From positions 1 through 23,329 of IMG/VR virus record IMGVR_UViG_3300028394_000320: a DNA stretch of 23,329 bases; one strand, 5' to 3'. Positions 2,461 to 21,256 of the stretch are shown here, one piece after another (positions within the stretch are counted from its first letter, which is position 1; every line of letters begins with the position of its first letter). A program made the translations under genes and the position numbers. The notes beneath the pieces are model-generated. The model was not told where the DNA came from and did not search any database. It saw only the letters and a list, made by a program, of their open reading frames with translations. The DNA comes from a virus.

Positions 2461-2931
2461 TTACCAACTTGACCTATAATAGAAATCATAGCACGAAAGT
2501 TTGTCGTTGTCAAGTATCTTACGCAACATCTTTCGGGTATAAGCAATCTGCTCGAAATACCATTCGTTATACTCACTCACGGCATAGTGGTCATCAGTAA
2601 TCGGTAGCAACTCTTTCGCTAGGCGAGGTGTATCCATAATCTGCCCACAAATCAAGTGTAGTGCTTCCAACTCTACCCTGCCAACATAGTAAGCCTTACA
2701 ATCATCTACGCCTTCTTGTAGATTCTGAACGAACCAGTCGTGAATCTGGTGAGCCTTACGCCAATAACCAACTGGCACTTCTACTGAAATGCTCGGTGAA
2801 TCTTGGTCAAGGTCATCATCAGTCAATCCAAGTGCTTCGGCAATGCTGTGAAACGCTTGCTTATCTTCCTGCTTACTGAATGTCCAGTTCGACACATACT
2901 TGCGTGCTTCTAGGTATTGGTCTAGTCCCAT
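2461..2931 (-). CDS. Conserved phage protein with MGLDxYL-RKYV N-terminus (156 aa)
   Basis: The start MGLDQYLEARKYVSNW is a signature I recognise from uncharacterised proteins in many phages and prophages. The rest is mixed alpha/beta with aromatic and histidine residues (YWRKAHQIHDWFVQN, DDCKAYYVGR) and a helical C-terminus. It is larger than its neighbours and slightly more basic. AGAGGAG lies about 11 bases before the ATG at 2931. It overlaps the upstream gene by 10 bases. The family's function is not established. Confidence 0.8.
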   Translation of the reverse strand: MGLDQYLEARKYVSNWTFSKQEDKQAFHSIAEALGLTDDDLDQDSPSISVEVPVGYWRKAHQIHDWFVQNLQEGVDDCKAYYVGRVELEALHLICGQIMDTPRLAKELLPITDDHYAVSEYNEWYFEQIAYTRKMLRKILDNDKLSCYDFYYRSSW

Positions 2932-3113
2932 TGGTTTTCACACTCCTCTTCTTCTGTAATCTCAACCTGTGAATAAGTCGCCTCTAAGTCCCAGCCGTAT
3001 TCGTCTGCGATTCTAGCCAAGGCGTTTGCTTCTGCCTCTTCTTCATTGTCAGCAGATACATTCGTAATAAGATTATAGTAATCACCGATAAACTCAACAT
3101 TATAACAACTCAT
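2922..3113 (-). CDS. DpnD/PcfM-like small acidic protein, paralogue 3 (63 aa)
   Basis: The protein reads as a strand (CYNVEFIGDYYNLITNVSAD), a helix (NEEEAEANALARIADEYG), then a final strand (YSQVEITEEEE). That is the EA-rich helix after V-AD seen in the neighbouring paralogues. The ATG at 3113 shares a base with the upstream stop (TGATG) and its own ribosome site is weak, so translation is probably coupled. Function is unknown. Confidence 0.7.
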   Translation of the reverse strand: MSCYNVEFIGDYYNLITNVSADNEEEAEANALARIADEYGWDLEATYSQVEITEEEECENQWD

Positions 3114-3313
3114 CAGTAGCCTCGAATCTCTTTTAGCACTTCGATAATGTCAGTCAAGTTCTCTTCCTTGATAGTCATTAGGTCTTCGGTGTCGAATCCG
3201 TCAGGGTAAACTAACTGAACATAAACCTCGCCAGCCTCAGTTGCGTGTGTAAATCTTAGTCGCTCGTATCCTCGTGGAATGTCAAACTCCACTATCTTTC
3301 GCTTGCTATACAT
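3113..3313 (-). CDS. Small phage protein of unknown function (66 aa)
   Basis: It starts MYSKRKIVEFDIPRGYERLR and contains beta-like segments (EVYVQLVYPDGF) followed by a C-terminal helix (NLTDIIEVLKEIRGY). GAGGAGGAAA lies upstream of the ATG at 3313, inside the last codons of the previous gene, which it overlaps by 8 bases. It is less acidic than most neighbours. No family is recognised. Confidence 0.75.
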   Translation of the reverse strand: MYSKRKIVEFDIPRGYERLRFTHATEAGEVYVQLVYPDGFDTEDLMTIKEENLTDIIEVLKEIRGY

Positions 3314-3560
3314 TTGTTTCCTCCTCTTCTAGTAGTTCTTCCACGATAGCACAGATTACTCTGTTTGTCAAGGCAACACCTTCATCAAGTGAATAGTCTG
3401 CCTGTTCGACAACCCGTTCCCAAATGTCCTCTTTATCGGCACTCTCTGGCACAAGGTCGTCAATGTCTGTAATGCTCCAATAGGTATACATCAGCACATC
3501 ATCAGGGTTATAGTTGTTTTGAATCTCCTTGATAAGTTCAACCGCTGTCTTCACGCTCAC
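3306..3560 (-). CDS. Small acidic protein, paralogue of the gene at 4640 (84 aa)
   Basis: Translation most likely starts at GTG (3558-3560), which overlaps the upstream stop as GTGA; no ATG is available at that junction. The pattern ELIKEIQNNYNPDDVLMY, then an IW-R-VEQADYSLDEGV block, matches the protein at 4640-4867 (KLIELLQGYDEDEKLVY, then W-L-GEQLDYELDEAI). The two are therefore paralogues about 1.3 kb apart. It ends EEEETNV, encoding the next ribosome site. Related small proteins occur in other phages; function is unknown. Confidence 0.75.
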   Translation of the reverse strand: MSVKTAVELIKEIQNNYNPDDVLMYTYWSITDIDDLVPESADKEDIWERVVEQADYSLDEGVALTNRVICAIVEELLEEEETNV

Positions 3561-3763
3561 TTGTATTCAATCCAATCGTATCCCTCTGAATCATCTTGGT
3601 CAAGGTCTAGGTAATAGAACTTGTCCTGAAACTCCGTAGTGTCATACAACTGCTCCCAGTCGCCACTCTCCTGTGCCTTGTCAATCGCTTCATCAGGGGA
3701 ATCTGCTTCTACTTCGGTTTCATACCAAATCTCAGCCATTTGCTGAACTTTATAGGTTGCCAT
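3557..3763 (-). CDS. DpnD/PcfM-like small acidic protein, paralogue 4 (68 aa)
   Basis: This is the clearest member of the local family: MATYKVQQMAEIWYETEVEA, then DSPDEAIDKAQESGDW (helix), then beta-like FYYLDLDQ. The EVEADSPDEAIDKA core is typical of DpnD/PcfM-like proteins. The ATG at 3763 is chosen for GGAGAGAAGT directly upstream; four extra upstream residues are possible but lack support. It overlaps the downstream gene by a GTGA junction and the upstream gene by 14 bases. Confidence 0.75.
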   Translation of the reverse strand: MATYKVQQMAEIWYETEVEADSPDEAIDKAQESGDWEQLYDTTEFQDKFYYLDLDQDDSEGYDWIEYK

Positions 3764-3932
3764 ACTTCTCTCCAATCTCTAACGCTAAGTCCCACTTGTC
3801 ATTGTCATTTGCTTCTTCTAGGTCGAGAAAGTCTTCCTCGCTCCACTTGCTCGTATCAACTAGCAATACGCTGTCAGTTCCGTAAGTCCCGTCTGGTGAA
3901 ATCCAGAGGTCGTGGTGAATACTACTCGACAT
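3750..3932 (-). CDS. Small phage protein of unknown function (60 aa)
   Basis: The start is placed at the ATG at 3932, with GGAG 11 bases upstream. This gives MSSSIHHDLWISPDGTYGTD at the N-terminus, followed by an acidic helix (WSEEDFLDLEEANDNDKW). It overlaps the upstream gene by 11 bases and the downstream gene by 14. The N-terminal WISPDGTYG-DSVLLVDTS pattern is seen in other small phage proteins, but I cannot name a family. Confidence 0.65.
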   Translation of the reverse strand: MSSSIHHDLWISPDGTYGTDSVLLVDTSKWSEEDFLDLEEANDNDKWDLALEIGEKYGNL

Positions 3933-4116
3933 CACTAAACTCCACTTCACTGAAATCAAACACGCCGTTGCTTCTCAGCAAGTCCTGTAAATCGTGAAAG
4001 GCATACTCTTCTACTTCCTCGGCGAAATCGTCTTCGGGAATCTCTCTGCCCGTCATAAATCTTAGGCTCTCCAAATCGTAGTCTAGCACAATCGTAATCT
4101 TTGCTTTCTTATTCAT
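3922..4116 (-). CDS. Small phage protein, conserved type (64 aa)
   Basis: Two adjacent ATG codons (4119 and 4116) follow GAAGGGACTT. The second is preferred because its spacing from AAGGGA is about seven bases. The protein opens with a beta strand (KKAKITIVLDYDLE), continues with a long acidic helix (DDFAEEVEEYAFHDLQDLL) and ends acidic. This resembles a common class of uncharacterised phage proteins with a KxKVTV strand and a helix of EE and QL pairs. It overlaps the upstream gene by 8 bases. Confidence 0.7.
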   Translation of the reverse strand: MNKKAKITIVLDYDLESLRFMTGREIPEDDFAEEVEEYAFHDLQDLLRSNGVFDFSEVEFSDVE

Positions 4117-4300
4117 CATAAGTCCCTTCGTTGTAGTCTTGGATAATGAGTTCCAGCAACTCGTCAATGTAGTTCTCTGCTCTGCCAACAATGTCGTCAG
4201 CAATCGCTTCCCACTGGCTATCGGTGATAGTATCACCTGTCCAATGCTCGAACTCTTCCTTTGTAATCTCTTGAATCTTTGCTACTGCTACCTTTGCCAT
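4109..4300 (-). CDS. Small helical acidic protein (63 aa), first gene after an internal promoter
   Basis: The protein is almost entirely helical by pattern (ITKEEFEHWTGDTITDSQWE, then ELLELIIQDYNEG). GAGAGGAGAAC precedes the ATG at 4300. A strong promoter (4326-4354) lies directly upstream with a leader of about 20 bases, so this gene heads its own transcription unit running to the left edge. No family is recognised; similar small W-x-D helical proteins are common in phages. Confidence 0.75.
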   Translation of the reverse strand: MAKVAVAKIQEITKEEFEHWTGDTITDSQWEAIADDIVGRAENYIDELLELIIQDYNEGTYDE

Positions 4301-4325
4301 TTTGTTCTCCTCTCGTTGTATTTAT

Positions 4326-4354
4326 AACCTAGCACAAGTCTAGTTGTTTGTCAA
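4326..4354 (-). promoter_or_regulatory. Sigma70-type early promoter P1
   Basis: On the minus strand: TTGACA, 17-base spacer ending in TGC, then TAGGTT. The -35 box overlaps the end of the upstream gene (stop at 4340). Its start point would lie about 20 bases before the ATG at 4300. Confidence 0.7.
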
Positions 4355-4639
4355 GTCAATCTCAATCTTTGTTATCATTCCGTTATCTATGGTCGCATAC
4401 ACGGGGAACACGCCATCTCCACCAGTTGAAACTGCTACTGCCACACCAGCCGAATGTTCGTTGTATAGCACGCCTCCTCTTCGGCTCGATAGAGTTGCCT
4501 CGCACGCTCCTGAGTAAGAATAACTATAAATACTATTGTCGCCGTAATCGTCATTTATGAAACTTCCTAGACTGGCAGGGTCGCCAATCATAACTTGCCC
4601 TGAATCAACACCAAAGTTGCCGATAAATACTCGCTCCAT
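4340..4639 (-). CDS. DUF4241-like phage protein (99 aa)
   Basis: The sequence carries the hallmarks of the DUF4241-like family: GVDSGQVMIGDPASL near the N-terminus, YSGACEAT in the middle, AGVAVAVSTGGDGVFPVY, then an I-I-I-DL ending. The family is common in phages and bacteria and has no agreed function. GGAGGA lies before the ATG at 4639, which abuts the stop of the preceding gene. It is the last gene before promoter P1, whose -35 box sits in its stop region. Confidence 0.75.
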   Translation of the reverse strand: MERVFIGNFGVDSGQVMIGDPASLGSFINDDYGDNSIYSYSYSGACEATLSSRRGGVLYNEHSAGVAVAVSTGGDGVFPVYATIDNGMITKIEIDLTNN

Positions 4640-4867
4640 TTAGTCCTCCTTTGTTTCGGCAGACTTCTGGTCAAACCAGAAATCAAGTTCAACAATCGCT
4701 TCGTCTAGTTCGTAGTCTAGTTGCTCACCGATTAGTTCCCACTCTTTCACGCTCATTGGTCGTTCCAGAATCTCGGCTACTGCTTCTCGGTCAATCACAC
4801 GATAGACAAGTTTCTCGTCTTCGTCATAACCTTGTAGTAGTTCAATCAGTTTCTTTATTGTAATCAT
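4640..4867 (-). CDS. Small acidic protein, paralogue of the gene at 3306 (75 aa)
   Basis: The protein reads MITIKKLIELLQGYDEDEKL, then a WELIGEQLDYELDEAI block. It aligns by eye over most of its length with the protein at 3306-3560. GGAGAGC precedes the ATG at 4867, and the TAATG junction couples it to the upstream gene. The pattern suggests an early helix, a short strand (KLVYRVID) and a second long helix. Function is unknown. Confidence 0.75.
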   Translation of the reverse strand: MITIKKLIELLQGYDEDEKLVYRVIDREAVAEILERPMSVKEWELIGEQLDYELDEAIVELDFWFDQKSAETKED

Positions 4868-5046
4868 TAGTTGCTCTCCTTTGTCTTCTTGATTAGTAGT
4901 GTCTGGTAGATTACGCTCGGCTCATCTGAATCCCAGTCCAGATAGAATCCTCTCAGCGTTCTCTTGTTCTTTGCCGAAACAATCTCAACAAACGGCTCGT
5001 GCCTATTGCTCGCTGTTCGCACAACTATGTATCTGTTCAATCTCAT
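4867..5046 (-). CDS. Small basic protein of unknown function (59 aa)
   Basis: The ATG at 5046 follows GAGGTAG and overlaps the upstream stop as ATGA. The protein is beta-like and basic (MRLNRYIVVRTASNRHEP, SAKNKRTLRGFYLDW), unlike its acidic neighbours, and ends with a KK tract. This could suit nucleic-acid binding, but no motif supports that. An alternative ATG five codons earlier lacks a ribosome site. Confidence 0.65.
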   Translation of the reverse strand: MRLNRYIVVRTASNRHEPFVEIVSAKNKRTLRGFYLDWDSDEPSVIYQTLLIKKTKESN

Positions 5047-5162
5047 TTTGCTACCTCGCAATCTCTATAAGTTATCTTGAAACAATCTTCGCACTCGGTT
5101 GCGAAACACTCTTCAAAGTGCTTTTCGCAATCTCGCCACATCTCGCTATCGTGAAGACACAT
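5043..5162 (-). CDS. Cysteine-rich micro-protein (39 aa)
   Basis: The 39 residues include six cysteines (2, 12, 19, 24, 27, 35) and two histidines, with C24-x2-C27 (CEDC) at the centre. Metal binding is plausible. The ATG at 5162 shares a base with the upstream stop (TGATG) and GGAAGACG lies before it. The longer frame to 5282 would sit inside the preceding gene. It is kept because junctions on both sides are tight and cysteine density is high. Confidence 0.55.
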   Translation of the reverse strand: MCLHDSEMWRDCEKHFEECFATECEDCFKITYRDCEVAK

Positions 5163-6127
5163 CAGCGAATCGTCTTCCACACGAATGTCGGCTCGCTCCA
5201 ACCACGCTTGGATAGAACTAGGTGAGTAGTTCGTGCCAAGGTGTAGCCTATGTTGTTCCAAGACAAGTCGTCTAGAACCCACTTCGGCAGTCTTGCCACA
5301 TCTTCGGCGTAGTGCTTCTGGGCAAAGTCCTCTCGGTCTTTGAACTCGCCAACGAATCGTGCCTTCTCCATAGATAGAATGTTGCTAGGGTCGCTAACAT
5401 CACTCTCGCTTAGGCTCATCTGGTTAGAGAACTCGCCGTCTAGCCACATCAGGAATCGCTCCTTGGTGTCGAACTCAGGCAAGGCTTCGATAAAGCGTGC
5501 CTTCAAATCGGCTTGCTCTTCGCTCTTAGCCTTTCGAATCGCTCGTTGCTTGTCGGCTTCAATCTGGTCGTCAATCTCAGTTCGCTTGGCACTAAACTGA
5601 GCCTCGAACCAATCATCAGTATAACCACTACTAGCCTTGCTCCAAAATCTGTCAATAAAGTTGCCAAACCTGTAAGAATACTCGAACATCTCGTTGTAAG
5701 TAAGTTTATACTTATCCAGCCAAGTGTTGATTAGCCACGCTTGCTCCTCGTCAGTTCGGTGAGGCACGGATAGTTTAGGCTTCACCTTGACACAAGACCA
5801 GTCGCTCTTATCCCAGTCCAGCACAATCCCGTGTTCTGTGAAGATAGCAACAACCTTGTCTTTCAAGTCGTCTGTGAGGTTAGAATGGTTTAGATAAATA
5901 CCACCAACATAGTTGCCCTCGGTGTCATAAACATAGTCGCCACTAAGACTAATGCGGTTGCCCTGCCCACCATAGTGCCAGAGAATCGGCTCTGTCGGGT
6001 TGTCGAACTTGTCGCTCCCAATACACGAACGGCAACAACCTTGAACATTGCGGTGAATCTTTATCCCAGCCTTGCGTAGTGCCTTGCTTGCCTCTGTGTA
6101 GCGTGCTTCGAATGTTTGGTAATCCAT
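5162..6127 (-). CDS. Two-part protein with ArdA-like C-terminal domain (321 aa)
   Basis: This is the largest left-arm protein. Residues about 15-115 (ALRKAGIKIHRNVQGCCRSC, then GIVLDWD) look like a small domain found in DUF6891-type proteins; that match is tentative. Residues about 205-300 resemble ArdA antirestriction proteins: FIEALPEFDTKERF-MWLDGEF, then RFVGEFKDREDFAQ-HYAEDV, then LDDLSWNNIGYTL. ArdA proteins mimic DNA and inhibit type I restriction enzymes. A central segment (about 175-210) is highly charged and helical. TAATG joins it to the upstream gene. Antirestriction activity is inference. Confidence 0.65.
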   Translation of the reverse strand: MDYQTFEARYTEASKALRKAGIKIHRNVQGCCRSCIGSDKFDNPTEPILWHYGGQGNRISLSGDYVYDTEGNYVGGIYLNHSNLTDDLKDKVVAIFTEHGIVLDWDKSDWSCVKVKPKLSVPHRTDEEQAWLINTWLDKYKLTYNEMFEYSYRFGNFIDRFWSKASSGYTDDWFEAQFSAKRTEIDDQIEADKQRAIRKAKSEEQADLKARFIEALPEFDTKERFLMWLDGEFSNQMSLSESDVSDPSNILSMEKARFVGEFKDREDFAQKHYAEDVARLPKWVLDDLSWNNIGYTLARTTHLVLSKRGWSEPTFVWKTIR

Positions 6128-6294
6128 TAGTTTGCCTCCTCGTAAGTGTCGGTGTCGCCTAATACTACTCTCAATACTGCCAGTTTGTCAAGTCGCTCGA
6201 ACGGCAGGTGAATCAGTGCCTCAGCAATCTTGTTGCGTGCCGTTAGGTTGCCAATCTTCTCGCTTGAATCCATTAGTTCTTTCGTTGTAGTCAT
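6127..6294 (-). CDS. Small helical protein, first gene of the P2 transcription unit (55 aa)
   Basis: AGGAGGATTTACA precedes the ATG at 6294, and promoter P2 lies 30-60 bases upstream. The protein (MTTTKELMDSSEKIGNLTAR, then NKIAEALIHLPFERLDKLAV) is predicted to be two helices with a short acidic tail (YEEAN). It is co-transcribed with the ArdA-like gene that follows. No family is recognised. Confidence 0.7.
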   Translation of the reverse strand: MTTTKELMDSSEKIGNLTARNKIAEALIHLPFERLDKLAVLRVVLGDTDTYEEAN

Positions 6295-6324
6295 TGTAAA
6301 TCCTCCTTTGTCGTTGTTAGTAAA

Positions 6325-6353
6325 ACACTAGCATAGTTTGTTTCGTTTGTCAA
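6325..6353 (-). promoter_or_regulatory. Sigma70-type early promoter P2
   Basis: On the minus strand: TTGACA, 17-base spacer ending in TGC, then TAGTGT. It drives the unit starting at 6294. A CGTTAT-N5-CGTTATAA box lies just upstream of the -35 element, overlapping the end of the gene at 6363. Confidence 0.7.
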
Positions 6354-6357
6354 GTGC

Positions 6358-6376
6358 CGTTATCAAATCGTTATAA
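6358..6376. promoter_or_regulatory. Operator-like box next to P2
   Basis: CGTTATCAAATCGTTATAA: two CGTTAT units 11 bases apart, centre to centre. The same 19 bases recur at 9045-9063, and a close variant is at 10568-10588. Every copy is immediately upstream of a TTGACA promoter. Confidence 0.5.
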
Positions 6377-6941
6377 TCTCTAAATCCCAAGTGTCTTTGG
6401 CATAACTCTCCAAATCCTTTGGCAAGTCCAGCATTACGCCACCGATAGAATCGGCAATCTCCCAGCGTTCGATAGAGTTGTCGCTGTCAATCGTATTGAC
6501 ATAGGTTTCTAAGTTCTCCCTAGCAACCACGAACACATCTCCTCTAAACCAAGCCCGTAAATCTTCCTTTCGGTATTTCAGGTATTCGGCGTTGTCAATC
6601 GGCGTGTAGATAACCACATCTGCCCATTCGCCTTGTGAATAACCTCGCAAGGTGATGAACTCAAAGGCATAACCCTTGGCTTCGAACCACGCTCCCAAGA
6701 CACGCTCTCGCTTGGCTTCGTAGTCGTTATGGCTATGATAGTGAATCGAATCCTTCACTCGCCTAACGGCTTCCTCCACCTCGTCTTTCGTGCTTATGTC
6801 ATTGTAGCCTCGTGCTATGTTCAGGGTTTGAACACCGAACTCATCTCCGCACAAGTCTTCAAAGGCATAGGCTTCAAAGTCGTGATAGGCTGTAATCCTA
6901 GTCGTGCTGTCAATCTCCAAAATCTCTACTGGCTTATCCAT
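6363..6941 (-). CDS. Phage protein of unknown function (192 aa)
   Basis: GAGGAGG lies before the ATG at 6941. The order of features is a beta-rich N-terminus (STTRITAYHDFEAYAFEDL), a helical middle (EEAVRRVKDSIHYH), an aromatic stretch (GYSQGEWADVVIY), then AWFRGDVFVVARE and WEIADSIGGVML. The W-RGDV plus W-ADSIGG arrangement recalls an uncharacterised protein group common in actinophages (RGDVYG followed by DSCWG). It is shared here only loosely, and function is unknown. Confidence 0.75.
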   Translation of the reverse strand: MDKPVEILEIDSTTRITAYHDFEAYAFEDLCGDEFGVQTLNIARGYNDISTKDEVEEAVRRVKDSIHYHSHNDYEAKRERVLGAWFEAKGYAFEFITLRGYSQGEWADVVIYTPIDNAEYLKYRKEDLRAWFRGDVFVVARENLETYVNTIDSDNSIERWEIADSIGGVMLDLPKDLESYAKDTWDLEIITI

Positions 6942-6943
6942 TA

Positions 6944-7153
6944 TTAGTCCTCCTCAATCGTTTCTACTACAACCATCTCTGCTATGTCATTGTATTTTAG
7001 CCCATTGAATAAACATTCGAGCAACTCACTACGAGCAAGGTCTAATAGTTCTTCTTCTGTTCTAGGTGTGTCATCTTCATCTTCCCATTCCATTAGACCA
7101 CTCTCGTCAGGGTAGATGTCCATAGTAATACTTGCTCTATAAATCTTAGTCAT
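6944..7153 (-). CDS. Small acidic protein, first gene of the P3 unit (69 aa)
   Basis: AGAAGGAGATTAGA precedes the ATG at 7153, and promoter P3 is 30 bases upstream. The pattern is strand (KIYRASITMDIYPDE), helix (TEEELLDLARSELLECLFNG), strand (IAEMVVVETIEED). This is the same topology as the DpnD/PcfM-like proteins further down the arm, though without the EVEAD motif. The terminal EED codons contain the ribosome site for the next gene. Confidence 0.7.
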   Translation of the reverse strand: MTKIYRASITMDIYPDESGLMEWEDEDDTPRTEEELLDLARSELLECLFNGLKYNDIAEMVVVETIEED

Positions 7154-7182
7154 TCTAATCTCCTTCTGTTGTTGTTAGTAAT

Positions 7183-7211
7183 ACACTAGCACATTCTTTT
7201 ATGTTTGTCAA
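7183..7211 (-). promoter_or_regulatory. Sigma70-type early promoter P3
   Basis: On the minus strand: TTGACA, 17-base spacer ending in TGC, then TAGTGT. The leader to the ATG at 7153 is about 23 bases. A CATAAC-TTTTGATAACG box (about 7220-7237) lies just upstream of the -35 element. Confidence 0.7.
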
Positions 7212-7452
7212 GTCAGTTTCATAACATTTTGATAACGGGCGATTATGTTATGTTGGTATTCTATTATGTTTTAGTGCTATGTTTGGTGCTATAAATCATA
7301 AAGGAATAACATAACATTATCGCCACTATTCTGTTGTCAAGGTGCTACTATCGGTTGAAAGTGAAACACATCTAATACTATTTCAGCACTTTCTTATACC
7401 TAGTTAGTAATACTATTATTATTTTATTATAGTATTATAAAGGTATAAAGGT
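7212..7452. other. AT-rich intergenic region with inverted repeats
   Basis: There are 241 bases without a gene. From right to left it holds a 9-bp-arm palindrome at 7408-7437 (TAATACTAT, 12-base loop, ATAGTATTA), then a long imperfect inverted repeat: CGATTATGTTATGTT (7240-7254) against AACATAACATTATCG (7308-7322), one mismatch. TATGTT and GTGCTAT units recur in between. The 7408-7437 palindrome follows the stop of the gene at 7453 and could end that transcript, but it has no GC stem. A replication origin or repressor-binding region is an alternative. Confidence 0.5.
7408..7437. repeat. AT-rich palindrome
   Basis: Arms of 9 bases (TAATACTAT / ATAGTATTA) flank a 12-base AT-only loop, 16 bases downstream of the stop codon at 7453. 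It is too weak for a standard terminator by itself. Confidence 0.45.
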
Positions 7453-7581
7453 TTAGAGGGCAAGGCGAATAAACTCGTGTTCTGGCACGCCACATTCGCC
7501 ACACCACCTATCCCCAGCAATACCCGTTATAACATAGGTATTCGGGTCAAGGTGATTAGGGCAGACTAATGCTGTCGCCAT
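7453..7581 (-). CDS. Zinc-ribbon micro-protein (42 aa)
   Basis: The protein has C7-P-N-H10 and C27-x2-C30 (CGEC), a C2HC-type zinc ribbon in 42 residues, between which lies DPNTYVITGIAG. The ATG at 7581 lies inside the end of the upstream gene (16-base overlap) with GAGGG about 9 bases before it. The residue pattern and the placement at the end of a leftward operon support it as real. Function is unknown. Confidence 0.6.
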   Translation of the reverse strand: MATALVCPNHLDPNTYVITGIAGDRWCGECGVPEHEFIRLAL

Positions 7582-7910
7582 ACATAACCCTCGTCAAACT
7601 CGTAATCCCATTGAAACGCTCTAAACCAAGTTTCACGCCAATCCACGCTAACCTCGTTTAGAATCCGTAGCGTTTCTTCGCTAGCCGTGTCGTCATAGTA
7701 TTGCTCGACAAACTGAGCCTCGTCTTCGTAATCGCCAACAAATCGGTCTTCTTCATCTCGAATGTAATCGGCGAGTTTGTCGGGTAAGTTCTCTGGCGTG
7801 TCGTCATAGCCGTTCCAACTAATCCAAACTGCTAGCCGTCTAATCTCAGGGTGGTCTATGTCGCCGTTAGGCATACCTTCCAGCACCTCTAAAATCTCTT
7901 CTTTATACAT
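7566..7910 (-). CDS. ArdA-like antirestriction protein (114 aa)
   Basis: Residues about 20-75 match the ArdA middle (LAVWISWNGYDDTPENL, then DKLADYIRDEEDRFVGDYED). Residues about 55-114 match the ArdA end (FVGDYEDEAQFVEQYYDDTA, then VDWRETWFRAFQWDYEF, then EGYVWRQH). ArdA proteins are elongated acidic DNA mimics of about 165 residues that block type I restriction-modification enzymes. This one is shorter and lacks the N-terminal domain. GAGGAGGAAG precedes the ATG at 7910. The net charge is strongly negative, as expected for a DNA mimic. Confidence 0.75.
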   Translation of the reverse strand: MYKEEILEVLEGMPNGDIDHPEIRRLAVWISWNGYDDTPENLPDKLADYIRDEEDRFVGDYEDEAQFVEQYYDDTASEETLRILNEVSVDWRETWFRAFQWDYEFDEGYVWRQH

Positions 7911-8035
7911 TAGTCTTCCTCCTCTTCGTTGATAACTTGTTCTAGGTAATCCACTAGGTCATAGACATTTATCTGCCCAGCGTGATAAGCACTATAAAGT
8001 TCTTTGAACTCTTTTGCCATTCTGTCGCTAATCAT
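7910..8035 (-). CDS. Small helical acidic protein (41 aa)
   Basis: The ATG at 8035 has GGGAGAAGAG directly upstream and overlaps the stop of the previous gene as ATGA. A second start (MAKEFKELYS) is five codons inside. The protein is one amphipathic helical stretch (AKEFKELYSAYHAGQINVYD, then LVDYLEQVINEEEED). The EEEED tail encodes the ribosome site of the ArdA-like gene, with which it is probably translationally coupled. Confidence 0.65.
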   Translation of the reverse strand: MISDRMAKEFKELYSAYHAGQINVYDLVDYLEQVINEEEED

Positions 8036-8202
8036 CTCTTCTCCCAGTATTCGTCTTGGGCAATCATAGACTCCAAATCGCTAATCCTGCCTTCTAGTAA
8101 TGCCCATAGGCTTAGGCTAGGTTGGGCGTTAGTGCCTAGGCTGTTGTATTTCCTCACATCTCGTTTCAGTTCGGCGAGTTCGGCTCGGTGTTCTTCTAGC
8201 AT
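8032..8202 (-). CDS. Small coiled-coil-like protein (56 aa)
   Basis: The N-terminus (MLEEHRAELAELKRDVRKYN) and C-terminus (LLEGRISDLESMIAQDEYW) have heptad-like leucine spacing, with a proline-containing break between them. A helical hairpin is likely. GGAGGCATA precedes the ATG at 8202 and a TAATG junction links it to the upstream gene. It contains the GGGAGAAGAG site of the next gene. Function is unknown. Confidence 0.65.
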   Translation of the reverse strand: MLEEHRAELAELKRDVRKYNSLGTNAQPSLSLWALLEGRISDLESMIAQDEYWEKR

Positions 8203-8414
8203 TATGCCTCCGTTCTTAGTAGTTCGACAATAATCCCTCGTGCCTCTTTCAAGGAATCTAGGGCTATGTCTAAATCGTCTAGGGTTGCCGATAGTTGCTT
8301 TACCTCGGTGTATTCGGCAATCTTCTCGGTGTCTAGGGCTTCGAACGAATCGAGTAGTTCATAAGCCCAGTAAATAGCATTGCCAATCTTGTCGAGTTTC
8401 TCAGGGTCAATCAT
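8202..8414 (-). CDS. Small helical protein (70 aa)
   Basis: The ATG at 8414 is chosen for AGAAGGAGAACTA directly upstream; the longer frame to 8480 runs through the preceding gene. The protein is strongly helical (DKIGNAIYWAYELLDSFEAL, then LDDLDIALDSLKEARGIIVE) and resembles a short coiled coil. It joins the upstream gene by TAATG. No family is recognised. Confidence 0.7.
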   Translation of the reverse strand: MIDPEKLDKIGNAIYWAYELLDSFEALDTEKIAEYTEVKQLSATLDDLDIALDSLKEARGIIVELLRTEA

Positions 8415-8563
8415 TAGTTCTCCTTCTTTGCTAGGGTAATGTAATCCTTTGGTCTTAGATAAGTTGCGTGGAATCCACACATCTTATAGGGCTGTTCTCC
8501 TCCATAGTATAGGGTAATCCTATCTTCGCTATGGTTATGCCCAAGTCTTTGGCAGTCTAGCAC
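8414..8563 (-). CDS. Small Cys/His-containing protein with GTG start (49 aa)
   Basis: No ATG gives a long frame here. A GTG at 8561-8563 sharing a base with the upstream stop (TAGTG) does, which matches the TAATG and TGATG junctions used along this operon. The protein reads MLDCQRLGHNHSEDRITLYY, then a GGEQPYKMCGFH motif and a basic end. Cys4, His9, His11, Cys29 and His32 could bind a metal. AGGCAGG provides a moderate ribosome site. It contains the AGAAGGAG site of the next gene. Confidence 0.5.
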   Translation of the reverse strand: MLDCQRLGHNHSEDRITLYYGGEQPYKMCGFHATYLRPKDYITLAKKEN

Positions 8564-8658
8564 TAATAACCTGCCTTAGTTAGTATTTCAAGTAGTTTGT
8601 CTAGGGTTTCTTCGTCTAGGTTGTCAATCGCCTCTTCGTTGATTACATTCTCAAACAT
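8563..8658 (-). CDS. Acidic micro-protein (31 aa), first gene after the promoter hub
   Basis: The protein MFENVINEEAIDNLDEETLD plus 11 residues is a small acidic helix. TAGGAGAAAC precedes the ATG at 8658, and promoter P4 lies 30-60 bases upstream with no gene between. It may be a true peptide or mainly a leader that couples translation into the operon. The good ribosome site and its junction with the following GTG gene favour translation. Confidence 0.55.
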   Translation of the reverse strand: MFENVINEEAIDNLDEETLDKLLEILTKAGY

Positions 8659-8688
8659 TCGTTTCTCCTATCTCTCGGTCTTAGTAAA

Positions 8689-8717
8689 ACACTATCACAC
8701 TTTTTGTTTCTTGTCAA
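8689..8717 (-). promoter_or_regulatory. Sigma70-type early promoter P4
   Basis: On the minus strand: TTGACA, 17-base spacer ending in TGA, then TAGTGT. It is closest to the ATG at 8658, giving a leader of about 24 bases. Confidence 0.7.
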
Positions 8718-8773
8718 GTCTTTTTAGAAACTTTTTTGAAACTTTTTTTGCTCCTGTGTTTCTTGTTGTTATC

Positions 8774-8802
8774 AACCTAGCACACTTTCTAACCTTTGTC
8801 AA
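8774..8802 (-). promoter_or_regulatory. Sigma70-type early promoter P5
   Basis: On the minus strand: TTGACA, 17-base spacer ending in TGC, then TAGGTT. It is in tandem with P4, 85 bases upstream. Confidence 0.65.
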
Positions 8803-8816
8803 ATCCGCTTGTCTTT

Positions 8817-8826
8817 CGGCGTGTCG
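8817..8826. promoter_or_regulatory. CGGCGTGTCG decamer, copy 1
   Basis: Exact CGGCGTGTCG, 14 bases upstream of the P5 -35 box and in the opposite orientation to it. Its two sister copies directly precede P6 and P7. Confidence 0.4.
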
Positions 8827-8861
8827 TTTATTTTGTTGTCTGGTGCTTTGTTGATAGCAAT

Positions 8862-8890
8862 ACCCTAGCACACTCTAAAACGCTTGTCAA
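8862..8890 (-). promoter_or_regulatory. Sigma70-type early promoter P6
   Basis: On the minus strand: TTGACA, 17-base spacer ending in TGC, then TAGGGT. It is in tandem with P5 and P4. Confidence 0.65.
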
Positions 8891-8893
8891 GTG

Positions 8894-8903
8894 CGACACG
8901 CCG
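8894..8903. promoter_or_regulatory. CGGCGTGTCG decamer, copy 2
   Basis: The exact decamer on the minus strand, three bases upstream of the P6 -35 box. Confidence 0.4.
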
Positions 8904-8956
8904 ATAAATCCAAAAAACTTTCAACTTGCCATAAATAAGCGTATAGGTCAAATAAG

Positions 8957-8985
8957 CCCTGTAAGCCTCGTAGAGAGGCTCAGGG
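8957..8985. repeat. Stem-loop CCCTG-AGCCTC / GAGGCT-CAGGG
   Basis: An 11-bp stem (CCCTG, two-base bulge, AGCCTC, loop GTAGA, GAGGCT, CAGGG). There is no adjacent T-run, so it is not a standard terminator. Sequence related to its arms (CTACGAGCCTC, AGCCCTGAAAG) recurs at about 9012-9038, so a larger RNA fold is possible in the transcript from P8. Confidence 0.45.
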
Positions 8986-9044
8986 TCAAAGTAAGGTAAT
9001 CACATACGGCAAGCCCTGAAAGTGTCCCTACGAGCCTCTGGTGG

Positions 9045-9063
9045 CGTTATCAAATCGTTATAA
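9045..9063. promoter_or_regulatory. Operator-like box upstream of P7
   Basis: CGTTATCAAATCGTTATAA, identical over 19 bases to the box at 6358-6376. It lies 17 bases upstream of the P7 -35 hexamer. Confidence 0.5.
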
Positions 9064-9068
9064 ATCTA

Positions 9069-9078
9069 CGGCGTGTCG
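9069..9078. promoter_or_regulatory. CGGCGTGTCG decamer, copy 3
   Basis: The exact decamer on the plus strand, two bases upstream of the P7 -35 box. This is the same placement relative to the promoter as copy 2 at P6. Confidence 0.4.
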
Positions 9079-9080
9079 GT

Positions 9081-9109
9081 TTGACATTCTGGGGAATCTA
9101 TGCTAGACT
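9081..9109 (+). promoter_or_regulatory. Rightward promoter P7
   Basis: TTGACA, 17-base spacer (TTCTGGGGAATCTATGC), TAGACT, followed by CAAAAAACCTTCG at the expected start. It is a near-duplicate of P9 at 9246. No gene on this strand lies downstream before the minus-strand operon, so its product would be non-coding or antisense RNA. Confidence 0.65.
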
Positions 9110-9138
9110 ATTCAAAAAACCTTCGTCAAGATTAGTCA

Positions 9139-9156
9139 TTCGAACATTTGTTCGAA
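9139..9156. promoter_or_regulatory. LexA-type SOS box
   Basis: A perfect palindrome TTCGAAC-ATTT-GTTCGAA. It fits the Gram-positive/actinobacterial LexA consensus CGAAC-N4-GTTCG. It lies between the facing promoters P7 and P8, within about 25 bases of both expected start points, where a bound repressor could block both. A phage repressor with similar specificity is the alternative. Confidence 0.65.
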
Positions 9157-9180
9157 CGCTAAAAAAAGGGTATCAAATCA

Positions 9181-9209
9181 AGCCTAGCACATTTTAGCCA
9201 TTTTGTCAA
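9181..9209 (-). promoter_or_regulatory. Sigma70-type leftward promoter P8
   Basis: On the minus strand: TTGACA, 17-base spacer ending in TGC, then TAGGCT. It is divergent from P9 (9246), sharing the box at 9220-9237, and faces P7 across the LexA-type site. Confidence 0.65.
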
Positions 9210-9219
9210 GGCGTGTTTC

Positions 9220-9237
9220 ATAACATTATCGTTATAA
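9220..9237. promoter_or_regulatory. Operator-like box between divergent P8 and P9
   Basis: CATAACATTATCGTTATAA has the CGTTATAA unit plus an inverted ATAAC. It sits between the two -35 boxes, 8 bases from P9 and about 10 from P8, where one protein could control both. Confidence 0.5.
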
Positions 9238-9245
9238 ACTAGGGC

Positions 9246-9274
9246 TTGACATTCTGGGCAAAGTGTGATAGACT
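9246..9274 (+). promoter_or_regulatory. Rightward promoter P9
   Basis: TTGACA, 17-base spacer (TTCTGGGCAAAGTGTGA), TAGACT, then CAAAAAACCTTCG, closely matching P7. A terminator-like hairpin begins at the expected start point. No plus-strand gene follows nearby. Confidence 0.65.
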
Positions 9275-9278
9275 AGAC

Positions 9279-9309
9279 AAAAAACCTTCGGCGTGTGGAG
9301 GGTCTTTTT
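9279..9309. terminator. Terminator-like hairpin at the start of the P9 transcript
   Basis: On the plus strand: ACCTTC (9284-9289), 8-base loop, GAGGGT (9298-9303, one G-U pair), then CTTTTT. An A-tract precedes the stem, so the minus strand also shows a stem (one C-A mismatch) followed by TTTTTT. It may end the transcript from P10 on the minus strand, or attenuate P9. Confidence 0.45.
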
Positions 9310-9403
9310 AGAGCCGATTATTTCGGGTAGGGTGGATTTTGAAAGGTTTATTTACAGAGCGTTATCCCACCGAACTCTTGCTTCGCTTTTCTTTTGTAAG
9401 AAT

Positions 9404-9432
9404 AGCCTAGCATACTTTTATTTATTTGTCAA
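9404..9432 (-). promoter_or_regulatory. Sigma70-type leftward promoter P10
   Basis: On the minus strand: TTGACA, 17-base spacer ending in TGC, then TAGGCT. The -35 box directly follows the 3' end of the tRNA-like fold at 9435-9480. Between it and the hairpin at 9279-9309 there is no start codon with a useful frame, so the first 120 bases of its transcript are non-coding. Confidence 0.65.
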
Positions 9433-10314: not shown

Positions 10315-10478
10315 TAGAGTTGCTCCTCGTCTAGTGTCAAGTTTTGCCATTCGGCTGGGTCTATGATTTCAATCGGCTCGTCAAGTGTTAGAGTTAGGCA
10401 AGAATAGCAAGCCTCCACACCCTTGGCGAACATTGTTTCGATTTCGGTTCTTTCGCATAGTTCACAAGTTCCAAACAT
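10314..10478 (-). CDS. Zinc-ribbon mini-protein, first gene of the P11 operon (54 aa)
   Basis: C5-x2-C8 (CELC) and C24-x2-C27 (CYSC) form a compact zinc ribbon, followed by an acidic tail ending TLDEEQL. The ATG at 10478 is chosen because AAGGAAACAA lies just before it. Promoter P11 is about 45 bases upstream, making this the first gene of the leftward unit that ends at 9493. The architecture is like the other cysteine-pair proteins of the arm. Function is unknown. Confidence 0.75.
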   Translation of the reverse strand: MFGTCELCERTEIETMFAKGVEACYSCLTLTLDEPIEIIDPAEWQNLTLDEEQL

Positions 10479-10567: not shown

Positions 10568-10588
10568 GTTATAACAAAATCGTTATAA
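10568..10588. promoter_or_regulatory. Operator-like box between divergent P11 and P12
   Basis: GTTATAACAAAATCGTTATAA contains the palindrome GTTATAAC plus the CGTTATAA unit seen upstream of P2, P7 and P9. It lies 7 bases from the P12 -35 box. Its position at the early/late divergence suggests control of both arms. Confidence 0.5.
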
Positions 10589-17528: not shown

Positions 17529-19562
17529 ATGTTTTCATTTAAGCTTTCTGATGAATTTATCAGCGATTACCGCAAGAAAGAATCACCCTTCGGCTATAAA
17601 GATGTAGCTGGAAACTCAGTAGGAGAGATTACATTCCTACGCACCTATTCACGCAAGAAGGAAGACGGAACAAAGGAAACTTGGGCTGATGTCTGTGAGC
17701 GTGTAATCAATGGTATGTATTCCCTTCAAAAAGACCACTGTAAGGCTTCTAGGCTGCCTTGGAATGACTCAAAGGCATCTGCATCCGCTAAGGAGGCGTT
17801 TGACCGCCTATTCACCCTCAAATGGACTCCTCCGGGTCGTGGGCTATGGGTCATGGGAACCGATATTGTAAATCGCCAGAGAAACTCTGCTGCTCTGCAA
17901 AACTGTGCTTTTGTTTCAACCAATGAGATGACAAAAAACAATCCGGGCAAGCCATTTGCGTTCCTTATGGAAGCATCCATGCTTGGCGTTGGAGTTGGCT
18001 TTGATGACAAGGGTGCTGATAAGGGATTTCAGATTTATGCCCCAGCTTCGCCATCTGACTATGTAATTCCAGATACTCGTGAAGGCTGGGCTGAGTCAAC
18101 TGTTGCACTTATTAATTCATTCCTAAAACCTGACCAAAAGAACTGGGACTTTGACTATGACCAGATTCGACCATATGGAACTCCAATTGTTGGATTTGGT
18201 GGAACAGCATCTGGACCGGAACCGCTAATCAAGCTACACAATCAGATTAGAAAACTATTTCTTGGTCGTGCTGGTGAGATGGTTACTCGCCGTGACATTG
18301 CCGATATTGGTAATATGATTGGTGTCTGTGTCGTTTCTGGAAATGTTCGCCGTTCTGCTGAGCTTCTTATTGGTCGCATTGATGATGAGGACTTCTTGAA
18401 CCTGAAGAACTCTGAGCGATTCCCTGAGCGTAACTCTTATGATGCTGAAACTCCGGGCTGGGCTTGGATGTCAAACAACTCTGTAGAAGTAGAGGTTGGA
18501 ACAAACTTCTCTCCTATCGTAGATGGTATTGTTCGTAATGGTGAGCCGGGTGTTATCTGGATGGATATGAGCCGTAAGTATGGTCGCATCACAGATGGAA
18601 TCAACAACAAGGACCACCGAGTTGTGGGATACAACCCTTGTGCTGAGCAGTCACTAGAGTCATTTGAGATGTGCACCCTTGTAGAAACTTACATGAACAG
18701 ACACGACTCAATCGAGGACTTCAAGAGAACCTTAAAGTTCGCTTATCTTTATGCAAAGACTGTAACTCTACTCCCAACCCACTGGGAAGAAACAAATGCA
18801 ATCATGCAGCGTAACCGCAGAATCGGAACCTCGATTTCTGGTATTGCCAACTTTGCAGATATCAATGGTCTACCAGCTACTAGGACTTGGATGGATGCTG
18901 GATTCAATGAAGTAAAGCGTTATGACCAGACCTACTCCGAGTGGCTAGGTGTTCGTGAGAGCATCAAGACTACTACTGTAAAGCCTTCTGGCACAGTGTC
19001 AATCTTAGCTGGAGAATCTCCGGGTGTTCATTGGACTCCGGGTGGCGAATACTTCCTTCGTGCTATTCGCTTTGGCAACTCTGACCCAATGCTTCCGCTA
19101 TTCAAGATGGCTAACTACACCATCGAGCCAGCATCTGAAGACCCAGTTGGAACTTCTGTTGTATTCTTCCCAGTGAAATCTGGTGCAAGACGAGCAGAGC
19201 GAGATGTATCCATCTTTGAGAAGATTGCACTGGCTGCAACTGCCCAGCGTTACTGGTCTGACAACTCTGTTTCGGTAACTGTGTCATTTGACCCAGAAAC
19301 TGAATCTAAGGATGTTGGCACTGTGCTCCATATGTATGATGGTCAGCTAAAGACTGTATCATTCTTACCAAGCGGAAACCACACTTATCCACAGATGCCT
19401 TACACGCAGATTACTCAGGAAGACTACGAGCAGTATGCAATGAAGCTTTTCCCAATTGACTTCTCTGGGGTTTATGCTGGAATGGCTTCTGAGGCGATTG
19501 GTGATGCCTACTGCACTACTGATGCGTGTGAAATCAAATTGATTGTAGAAAATCAAAAGTAA
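17529..19562 (+). CDS. nrdJ: Adenosylcobalamin-dependent (class II) ribonucleoside-triphosphate reductase
   Basis: The enzyme makes deoxynucleotides by reducing ribonucleotides through a thiyl radical generated from coenzyme B12. The sequence fits the monomeric triphosphate reductase type (Lactobacillus-like). The radical site is NPCAEQ (N369, C371, E373). The reducing pair is C126 (LQNCAFV) and C382 (FEMCTLVE). KPSGTVSILAG is at 485-495, and the C-terminal thiol pair C662-x4-C667 (CTTDAC) transfers electrons to the active site. At 677 residues it is somewhat shorter than the 739 of the Lactobacillus enzyme. AAAGGAGATTA precedes the start. It has its own promoter and flanking terminators inside the virion gene block, so it looks like an inserted metabolic cassette. 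Confidence 0.93.
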   Translation: MFSFKLSDEFISDYRKKESPFGYKDVAGNSVGEITFLRTYSRKKEDGTKETWADVCERVINGMYSLQKDHCKASRLPWNDSKASASAKEAFDRLFTLKWTPPGRGLWVMGTDIVNRQRNSAALQNCAFVSTNEMTKNNPGKPFAFLMEASMLGVGVGFDDKGADKGFQIYAPASPSDYVIPDTREGWAESTVALINSFLKPDQKNWDFDYDQIRPYGTPIVGFGGTASGPEPLIKLHNQIRKLFLGRAGEMVTRRDIADIGNMIGVCVVSGNVRRSAELLIGRIDDEDFLNLKNSERFPERNSYDAETPGWAWMSNNSVEVEVGTNFSPIVDGIVRNGEPGVIWMDMSRKYGRITDGINNKDHRVVGYNPCAEQSLESFEMCTLVETYMNRHDSIEDFKRTLKFAYLYAKTVTLLPTHWEETNAIMQRNRRIGTSISGIANFADINGLPATRTWMDAGFNEVKRYDQTYSEWLGVRESIKTTTVKPSGTVSILAGESPGVHWTPGGEYFLRAIRFGNSDPMLPLFKMANYTIEPASEDPVGTSVVFFPVKSGARRAERDVSIFEKIALAATAQRYWSDNSVSVTVSFDPETESKDVGTVLHMYDGQLKTVSFLPSGNHTYPQMPYTQITQEDYEQYAMKLFPIDFSGVYAGMASEAIGDAYCTTDACEIKLIVENQK

Positions 19563-19672: not shown

Positions 19673-21256
19673 ATGGCAATCTACTTTCCAGATACTAATC
19701 TCCCTCCTCAGTCCCAAGATTGGACCGACAAGGTTGAGAATGAAATCAAAAAACTCGACAAACGACCTTTTGGTGGGGGTGGTGGCTCTTCTTCTAGTGA
19801 GGGAACAGTTGGACCACAAGGACCGCAGGGACCACAAGGACCACAGGGTGAAGTTGGACCACAGGGTCCACAGGGTTTACAGGGGCTTACTGGTCCCACT
19901 GGAGTGACTGGAGCAACTGGACCAACTGGACCACAGGGTTTGACTGGTCCACAGGGCGATGTTGGTGTTCAGGGGCCTCAAGGTTTAAAAGGCGATACTG
20001 GAGCTGCTGGAGCGACTGGTGCACAAGGTGTTCAAGGTCCTGCTGGACCTAAAGGAGATACTGGAGCCACTGGAGCTGCTGGAGCTGCTGGAGCTACTGG
20101 TGCTACTGGTGCTACAGGTGCTACTGGTGCACAGGGGCCTATCGGTCTTACTGGAGCCACTGGAGCTACAGGCCCACAGGGAATACAAGGCTCACAAGGT
20201 CTAAGGGGTGATACTGGTTTAACTGGTGCAACTGGTCAGGGTGTCCCTACTGGTGGAACTACAGGTCAGGTTCTAGCAAAAATAAATGGAACCGATTACA
20301 ACACTCAGTGGGTAACTCCTTCCGGTGGCGGTGGGTCTGGCTTTACTGGTGCAGGAACATCTGTTACAGGTATTGCTGGCACTAATTCTACTGGTTTTGT
20401 AACTGTAACAAGCCCAAACTTTACTATGGCTACTGGCACAGCAATTACTTCTCTAACCTCTGACCCTGAATCACCTGATATTGCTACTTCTGGTAATTTA
20501 TACCTTAAATCTGGAAACGCTGAAGGTTTTCAGGCATACTCTGGAAATGTGTATTTACAAGGTGGTTCAATAGCCTATGATGGCGATAGTGGTTATGGCA
20601 TTAATGGAAGAATTTTTATTGGTGATAATAATACATCTACTGTTGCTATCGGGTGGACAGACACTACTGGATACACTTCTGGAATAGGTGCTACGACTGT
20701 AAATATTATGGATAGGGCTTCATCTGCTACTGGTAAACAATTGAATCTTGTTACTAATGGTGATTCAACTTTAAATATTGCTACTGGAGCGAATAATACT
20801 TTAGTAAGAATTGGAACAAGTTCAACAACAGCGAGTATAAACATTGGTACAGGAACAACTACTCCAACTGTTCAAATCGGAACAAACTTAGTTGCTTCTC
20901 GTACTTTCCTAAATGGAAAAAACTTCTTTTGGCAGCCCTCTCCGCCTACAACAATATCAACTGCCAGAACACTTACTTATACAGACCTTCAAACTTTTAT
21001 TGTGGTGTCTAGTGCTACTACAGGAAACTTTCCATTGCCTACAGGCACTTTGATGGATACTAATGTCCAAAACACTTCTACAGACATGGGCTTTGATTGG
21101 TCATTCATAAATACTGGAGCATCGGGGTCAAACACAGTAACCGCAGGAACTGCACATACTATTGTGGGTAGCGGAGTCGTTGCTTTTGGTACTTCTGCAA
21201 GATTTAGGTCAAGAAGAACGGCTGGCAATACTTGGATAACATACAGGATAGGATAG
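19673..21256 (+). CDS. Collagen-like fibre protein (527 aa)
   Basis: Three parts are visible. Residues 1-43 are a polar N-terminus with a GGGGGSSSS hinge. Residues 44-190 are Gly-X-Y repeats rich in GPQ and GAT, which should form a collagen triple helix. The rest is beta-structured, starting with a [17 protein letters not shown] segment typical of phage fibre linkers and ending in threonine- and glycine-rich strands. Such trimers are tail fibres or head fibres; the gene lies between capsid and connector genes, so a head-attached fibre is possible. It is probably leaderless. Confidence 0.85.
19802..20243 (+). repeat. Collagen-coding triplet repeat region
   Basis: About 49 consecutive GGN-NNN-NNN units, including runs of GGACCACAG and GGTGCTACT variants. 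Near-identical 9- and 18-base units make it prone to length change by recombination. Confidence 0.85.

Follow-up and report, generated by a model that had tools for sequence, protein, structure and literature searches.

A LexA-type palindrome between two facing promoters of an uncultured phage: a probable operator of host LexA on one promoter pair

Does a phage with no repressor of its own in view place promoters under the LexA protein of its host and, if so, how much of its transcription? The question is raised by a palindrome at positions 9139–9156 of the viral contig IMGVR_UViG_3300028394_000320, the whole 23,329 bases of which were analysed and are hereafter called the window. Its right arm carries genes for terminase, portal, capsid, and a B12-type ribonucleotide reductase, and its left arm carries many small leftward genes. 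The class II (B12-dependent) ribonucleotide reductase gene (17529–19562) is situated amid the head genes, and a collagen-like protein with Gly-X-Y repeats (19673–21256), possibly a fibre, is encoded among the structural genes. A nucleotide search of cultured phages found no near match to the window. The identity of its terminase to cultured-phage terminases reaches ~46% at most, with Arthrobacter and Clavibacter phages ranking first, and a terminase search of 297 Actinomycetes genomes gave partial or distant matches only.

The palindrome TTCGAACATTTGTTCGAA consists of the arms TTCGAAC and GTTCGAA separated by ATTT, and its exact presence at 9139–9156 confirmed the original prediction of a perfect LexA-type SOS box with 7-base arms. 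The inverted repeat TCGAAC-N4-GTTCGA is perfect at 9140–9155, with the arms extending one further base. The window contains a single perfect CGAACN4GTTCG, inside the palindrome, and ~0.02 such 10-base cores are expected per window from the base composition. The 7-base-arm form, with up to one mismatch allowed, occurred in none of 100 dinucleotide shuffles of the window. Inverted repeats of 7 bp around any 4-base spacer are not rare in themselves (~1.4 expected per window, 23,329/4^7), and what carries the weight is therefore the agreement with a known operator, together with the related phages. A one-mismatch CGAACN4GTTCG site at 10427 was rejected as an operator; it lies within a predicted reading frame and is probably a chance match. 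Intrinsic termination at 9139–9156 was rejected as well, since neither strand shows a T-run after the hairpin.

Consensus and pattern scans place the box between the rightward promoter P7 (9081–9109, plus strand; TTGACA-N17-TAGACT), the layout of which recurs in the related phages L101 and L240, and the leftward promoter P8 (9181–9209, minus strand; TTGACA-N17-TAGGCT), a member of the repeated promoter family D1. Both have a TG before the −10 region. With the starts placed 7 nt after the −10 regions, transcription is predicted to begin at ~9116 from P7 and ~9174 from P8. The 14-bp core of the box would then occupy about +26 to +39 of the rightward promoter and +21 to +34 of the leftward one, at most ~40 bp from either start. 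These positions support the earlier view that the box lies in the early transcribed stretch of both promoters, which are themselves assigned by consensus. A second rightward promoter (9246–9274, plus strand), divergent from that at 9209 and found in consensus scans, shares the repeat D3 with 9078–9125. A terminator-like hairpin at 9284–9308, ~10 bp past the predicted start of this strong promoter, would permit a very short RNA only; promoters at 4499 and 4955 of L101 are comparable to it and have the same AGACAAAAAACC start. On the minus strand, the leftward arm (2513–9432) displays at least 10 near-identical promoters (TTGACA-N17, TG before the −10 region) in a repeated-promoter layout.

Consensus promoters of the leftward arm that carry no LexA box are located at 9432, 8890, 8802, 8717, 7211, and 6353, among other positions. 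The box had also been proposed to link an "early switch" of the phage to DNA damage, and this part of the prediction was not supported, as at least six other leftward-arm promoters are without the box. Because of these promoters, LexA could tune only one promoter pair, and its effect would be partial rather than all-or-none. The most likely role of the site is that of a host LexA operator on one promoter pair, not of a master early switch. We consider it probable that the palindrome is the LexA operator of an actinobacterial host and dampens the pair with a partial, damage-dependent release. LexA dimers would bind at 9139–9156, ~20–40 bp downstream of both converging starts, and would impede transcription both ways, at promoter escape or in early elongation. 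Upon DNA damage, RecA would trigger the self-cleavage of LexA and the pair would be released, so that the output of one transcription unit would rise partially in response to the damage. Binding, repression, the damage response, and the identity of the host are all inferred here from the sequence. Two features count against this reading: most repressor sites lie less far downstream than the box, centred here near +27 and +32, and one box on its own may form a weak roadblock.

Chromosomal operators provide a comparison for this assignment. The sequence TCGAACN4GTTCGA is present in 252 of the 297 Actinomycetes genomes, and eight sites were read in six genomes of 1.3–1.4 Mb that have two sites each. 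Two of the eight lie 5' of lexA (LexA_DNA_bind and Peptidase_S24; TIGR00498), and the other six precede a short gene and, after it, a gene for a DnaE-type polymerase (the family of the polymerase was checked by a scan in one case). Their centres are of the ANNT kind, like the ATTT of the window, and the window site also matches perfectly the LexA motif of S. venezuelae, tCGAAC-N4-GNNCGa (PMC9380542). The actinobacterial lexA/dnaE2 operators thus have the 16-bp TCGAAC-N4-GTTCGA and the ANNT-type centre in common with the window site, whereas they are situated at chromosomal SOS genes, over the promoter core, and the window site belongs to a phage and follows the starts. A regulator other than LexA, for example a phage-encoded one with a similar site, would reduce the likeness to an SOS box to convergence. 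The window encodes many small proteins without annotated function, the fragment may lack the gene of such a regulator, and a protein of the phage GIL01 works together with host LexA. However, sites of the same kind precede lexA itself in Actinomycetes, LexA sites have this spacing of 4 and this ANNT centre, and the motif is common to diverse phages, and we regard another regulator as unlikely.

The host LexA assignment was further examined in 60 distinct terminase relatives, reduced from a larger set in which the motif was not a selection criterion. The 356 kb to the left of the terminase, the regulatory side, contained 13 perfect sites and the 373 kb to its right contained none, and for the 16-bp form, allowing one mismatch at most, the counts were 16 and 0, respectively; paired boxes among the counted sites are not independent of one another. 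At spacing 4 on the left side, CGAAC ranked second of 1024 half-sites, behind the AT-rich TATAT (mean 0.55), and CGAAC with other spacings gave 0–3 sites. Not every perfect match was accepted as a site. Five of the 13 overlap reading frames, are equally well explained by coding, which speaks against the LexA reading, and were discounted as possible by-products of conserved peptides. Examples of matches dropped as lying in reading frames are those in L101 (4046) and L257 that encode EQVFD at gene starts, a similar one in L012, and one in L032 within a ribonucleotide reductase gene. Eight sites are left in six phages, namely the window, L101, L018, L227 (two), L216 (two), and L206. The perfect box of L101 lies between facing promoters, in the same order of rightward promoter, box, leftward promoter, and accompanying elements as in the window, and occupies +19 to +32 of the leftward promoter, compared with +21 to +34 in the window. 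The box of L018 and the two of L227 lie around the −10 region of a late promoter; those at 8889 of L018 and at 2238 and 2282 of L227 surround or take the place of this region, and the late promoter of the window (10596) is intact. The two boxes of L216 are 30 bp apart, in a region of several short overlapping frames that are not clearly genes, and the box of L206 lies over a start codon.

In L240 and L241, an orthologous block that can be aligned with the window over the span of the two facing promoters contains a one-mismatch box, TCGAAAATCTGTTCGA, and the box of L007 is also a one-mismatch form. Most of the 60 relatives, L013 among them, are without the site, and in the corresponding region of L004 the facing promoters are present and the box is absent, so that the site was gained or lost within the group. 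The expectation of the same site in related phages held for a minority (L101, L240, and L241) and failed for others (L004 and L013). This minority distribution and the single mismatches in L240, L241, and L007 count against the LexA reading. A second sample comprised 118 further viral loci chosen solely for containing GTTAYCAAATCGTTATAA, an element described below; some are near-duplicates, and the independent cases are fewer. In these 1.09 Mb, 21 perfect CGAACN4GTTCG were found, and at spacing 4 no other of the 1024 half-sites was as frequent as CGAAC. The box lies within ~15 bp of GTTAYCAAATCGTTATAA in nine loci (L023, L049, L050, L090, L091, L110, L114, L126, and L127).

That few relatives keep the site, and that coding for EQVFD and similar peptides accounts for some perfect matches elsewhere, would be in line with a functionless chance occurrence. 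Nevertheless, the 0.02 copies expected in the window, the 13:0 and 16:0 distributions about the terminase, the same location in L101, L240, and L241, and the paired boxes in L216, L227, L070, and L091 make chance a quite improbable explanation. An action of the palindrome in RNA, as a 7-bp leader hairpin of the converging transcripts (in pausing, stability, or as part of a small RNA), is marginally less credible still: the predicted rightward RNA 9116–9310, hairpin included, folds better than shuffles (z −4.4), but the near-symmetrical promoter pair (I1) contributes to this fold as well, the enrichment is specific to CGAAC and not to 5-bp inverted repeats generally, the box replaces the −10 region in L018 and L227 and would be outside any leader there, and without a T-run on either strand the hairpin is not a terminator.

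Besides the probable LexA operator, the region contains a second element that resembles a host regulatory site. The 18-bp sequence GTTATCAAATCGTTATAA (9046–9063, plus strand) is located 17 bp upstream of the −35 region at 9081, and a diverged copy, ATAACATTATCGTTATAAA (9218–9238, plus strand; repeat D12), identified by sequence similarity, lies between the divergent promoters at 9209 (minus strand) and 9246 (plus strand). The reverse complement of the 9046–9063 element, ATAACGATTTGATAAC, agrees with the MtrA consensus (PMC3353115), and ATAACGATTTGRTAAC, the reverse complement of the 18-bp element, matches the MtrA box of C. glutamicum. This box is (A/G)TAACAATttn(A/G)TAACAAT and lies upstream of the −35 region where MtrA activates (PMC3353115). 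Compared with the direct repeat (A/G)TAACAAT-N3-(A/G)TAACAAT, the cores, the 11-bp period, and the position agree, and the outer bases differ. Plausibly, the 18-bp element is a site of a host activator, MtrA. In the phages, the distances from the element to the −35 region cluster near 7, 18, and 30 bp (5, 25, and 40 in the opposite orientation), close to whole helical turns, although the numbers are small and the loci partly redundant. GTTAYCAAATCGTTATAA and its variants lie upstream of window promoters at 6359–6376, 9046–9063, 9218–9238, 10571–10588, and 7219–7236, and the GTTAYCAAATCGTTATAA element occurs in more than 120 viral stretches, its cellular matches being mostly in Actinomycetota. 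Among the exact matches in cellular genomes, 27 of 48 are in Actinomycetota, and several lie 5' of genes that resemble fas, dnaB, and genes of secreted proteins, as judged by eye from the translations. A combined pattern of element plus box, as a route to the host through prophages, gave 0 matches in the genome collection.

The statement that no encoded repressor is in view held, as an S24-type repressor was found neither in the window nor in 21 related records. Tyrosine integrase, serine resolvase, and S24 peptidase families, as well as ParA-like and OmpR-type DNA-binding families, gave no match in the 22 group records scanned, many of them 47–55 kb long; these records may be partial, and the window is a fragment. 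The results suggest that phages of the group neither integrate nor encode a LexA-type repressor. We tentatively propose, as a possibility that we would not yet favour, that uncultured tailed actinophages without a recognisable integrase or LexA-type repressor place promoters under MtrA, an activator connected with the cell cycle and envelope, and under LexA, a repressor connected with DNA damage, and that infection would thereby follow the growth state and damage of the host.

Among cultured phages, Arthrobacter phage Amigo and Clavibacter phage CMP1 are the nearest relatives by terminase (~42–46% identity) and have a comparable head-gene order; the 50 kb examined of each contains no perfect LexA box and no MtrA-box-like element at up to three mismatches. 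Our search of the open literature, incomplete in coverage, yielded no description of LexA or MtrA sites in phages of this kind, and for actinobacterial tectiviruses the absence of a detectable LexA site has been reported (PMC6950372). The Bacillus thuringiensis tectivirus GIL01 has a host LexA site of the CGAACN4GTTCG type (dinBox1) just past a phage promoter start (P1), to which the probable operator of the window corresponds; GIL01 does not integrate and has no CI-type repressor (PMC4551915, PMC6182141), which may also be the case in the present group, judged from possibly partial records. In GIL01 the box is centred at +17 of P1, and SOS induction is ~4-fold (PMC4551915). GIL01 is a small tectivirus proven to be temperate, its LexA control has been measured and involves the helper gp7, whereas the window is a fragment of a tailed actinophage, with the site between two converging promoters and LexA control deduced from sequence. 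Direct control of temperate-phage promoters by host LexA is known already, as in GIL01; here a probable operator recurs in environmental tailed actinophages without visible integration genes, together with a putative second site of a host-type activator. If the proposal is true, such phages would need no repressor of their own to sense the DNA damage and cell-cycle state of the host, and LexA sites could point to hidden non-integrating lysogeny or damage-responsive infection in uncultured phages.
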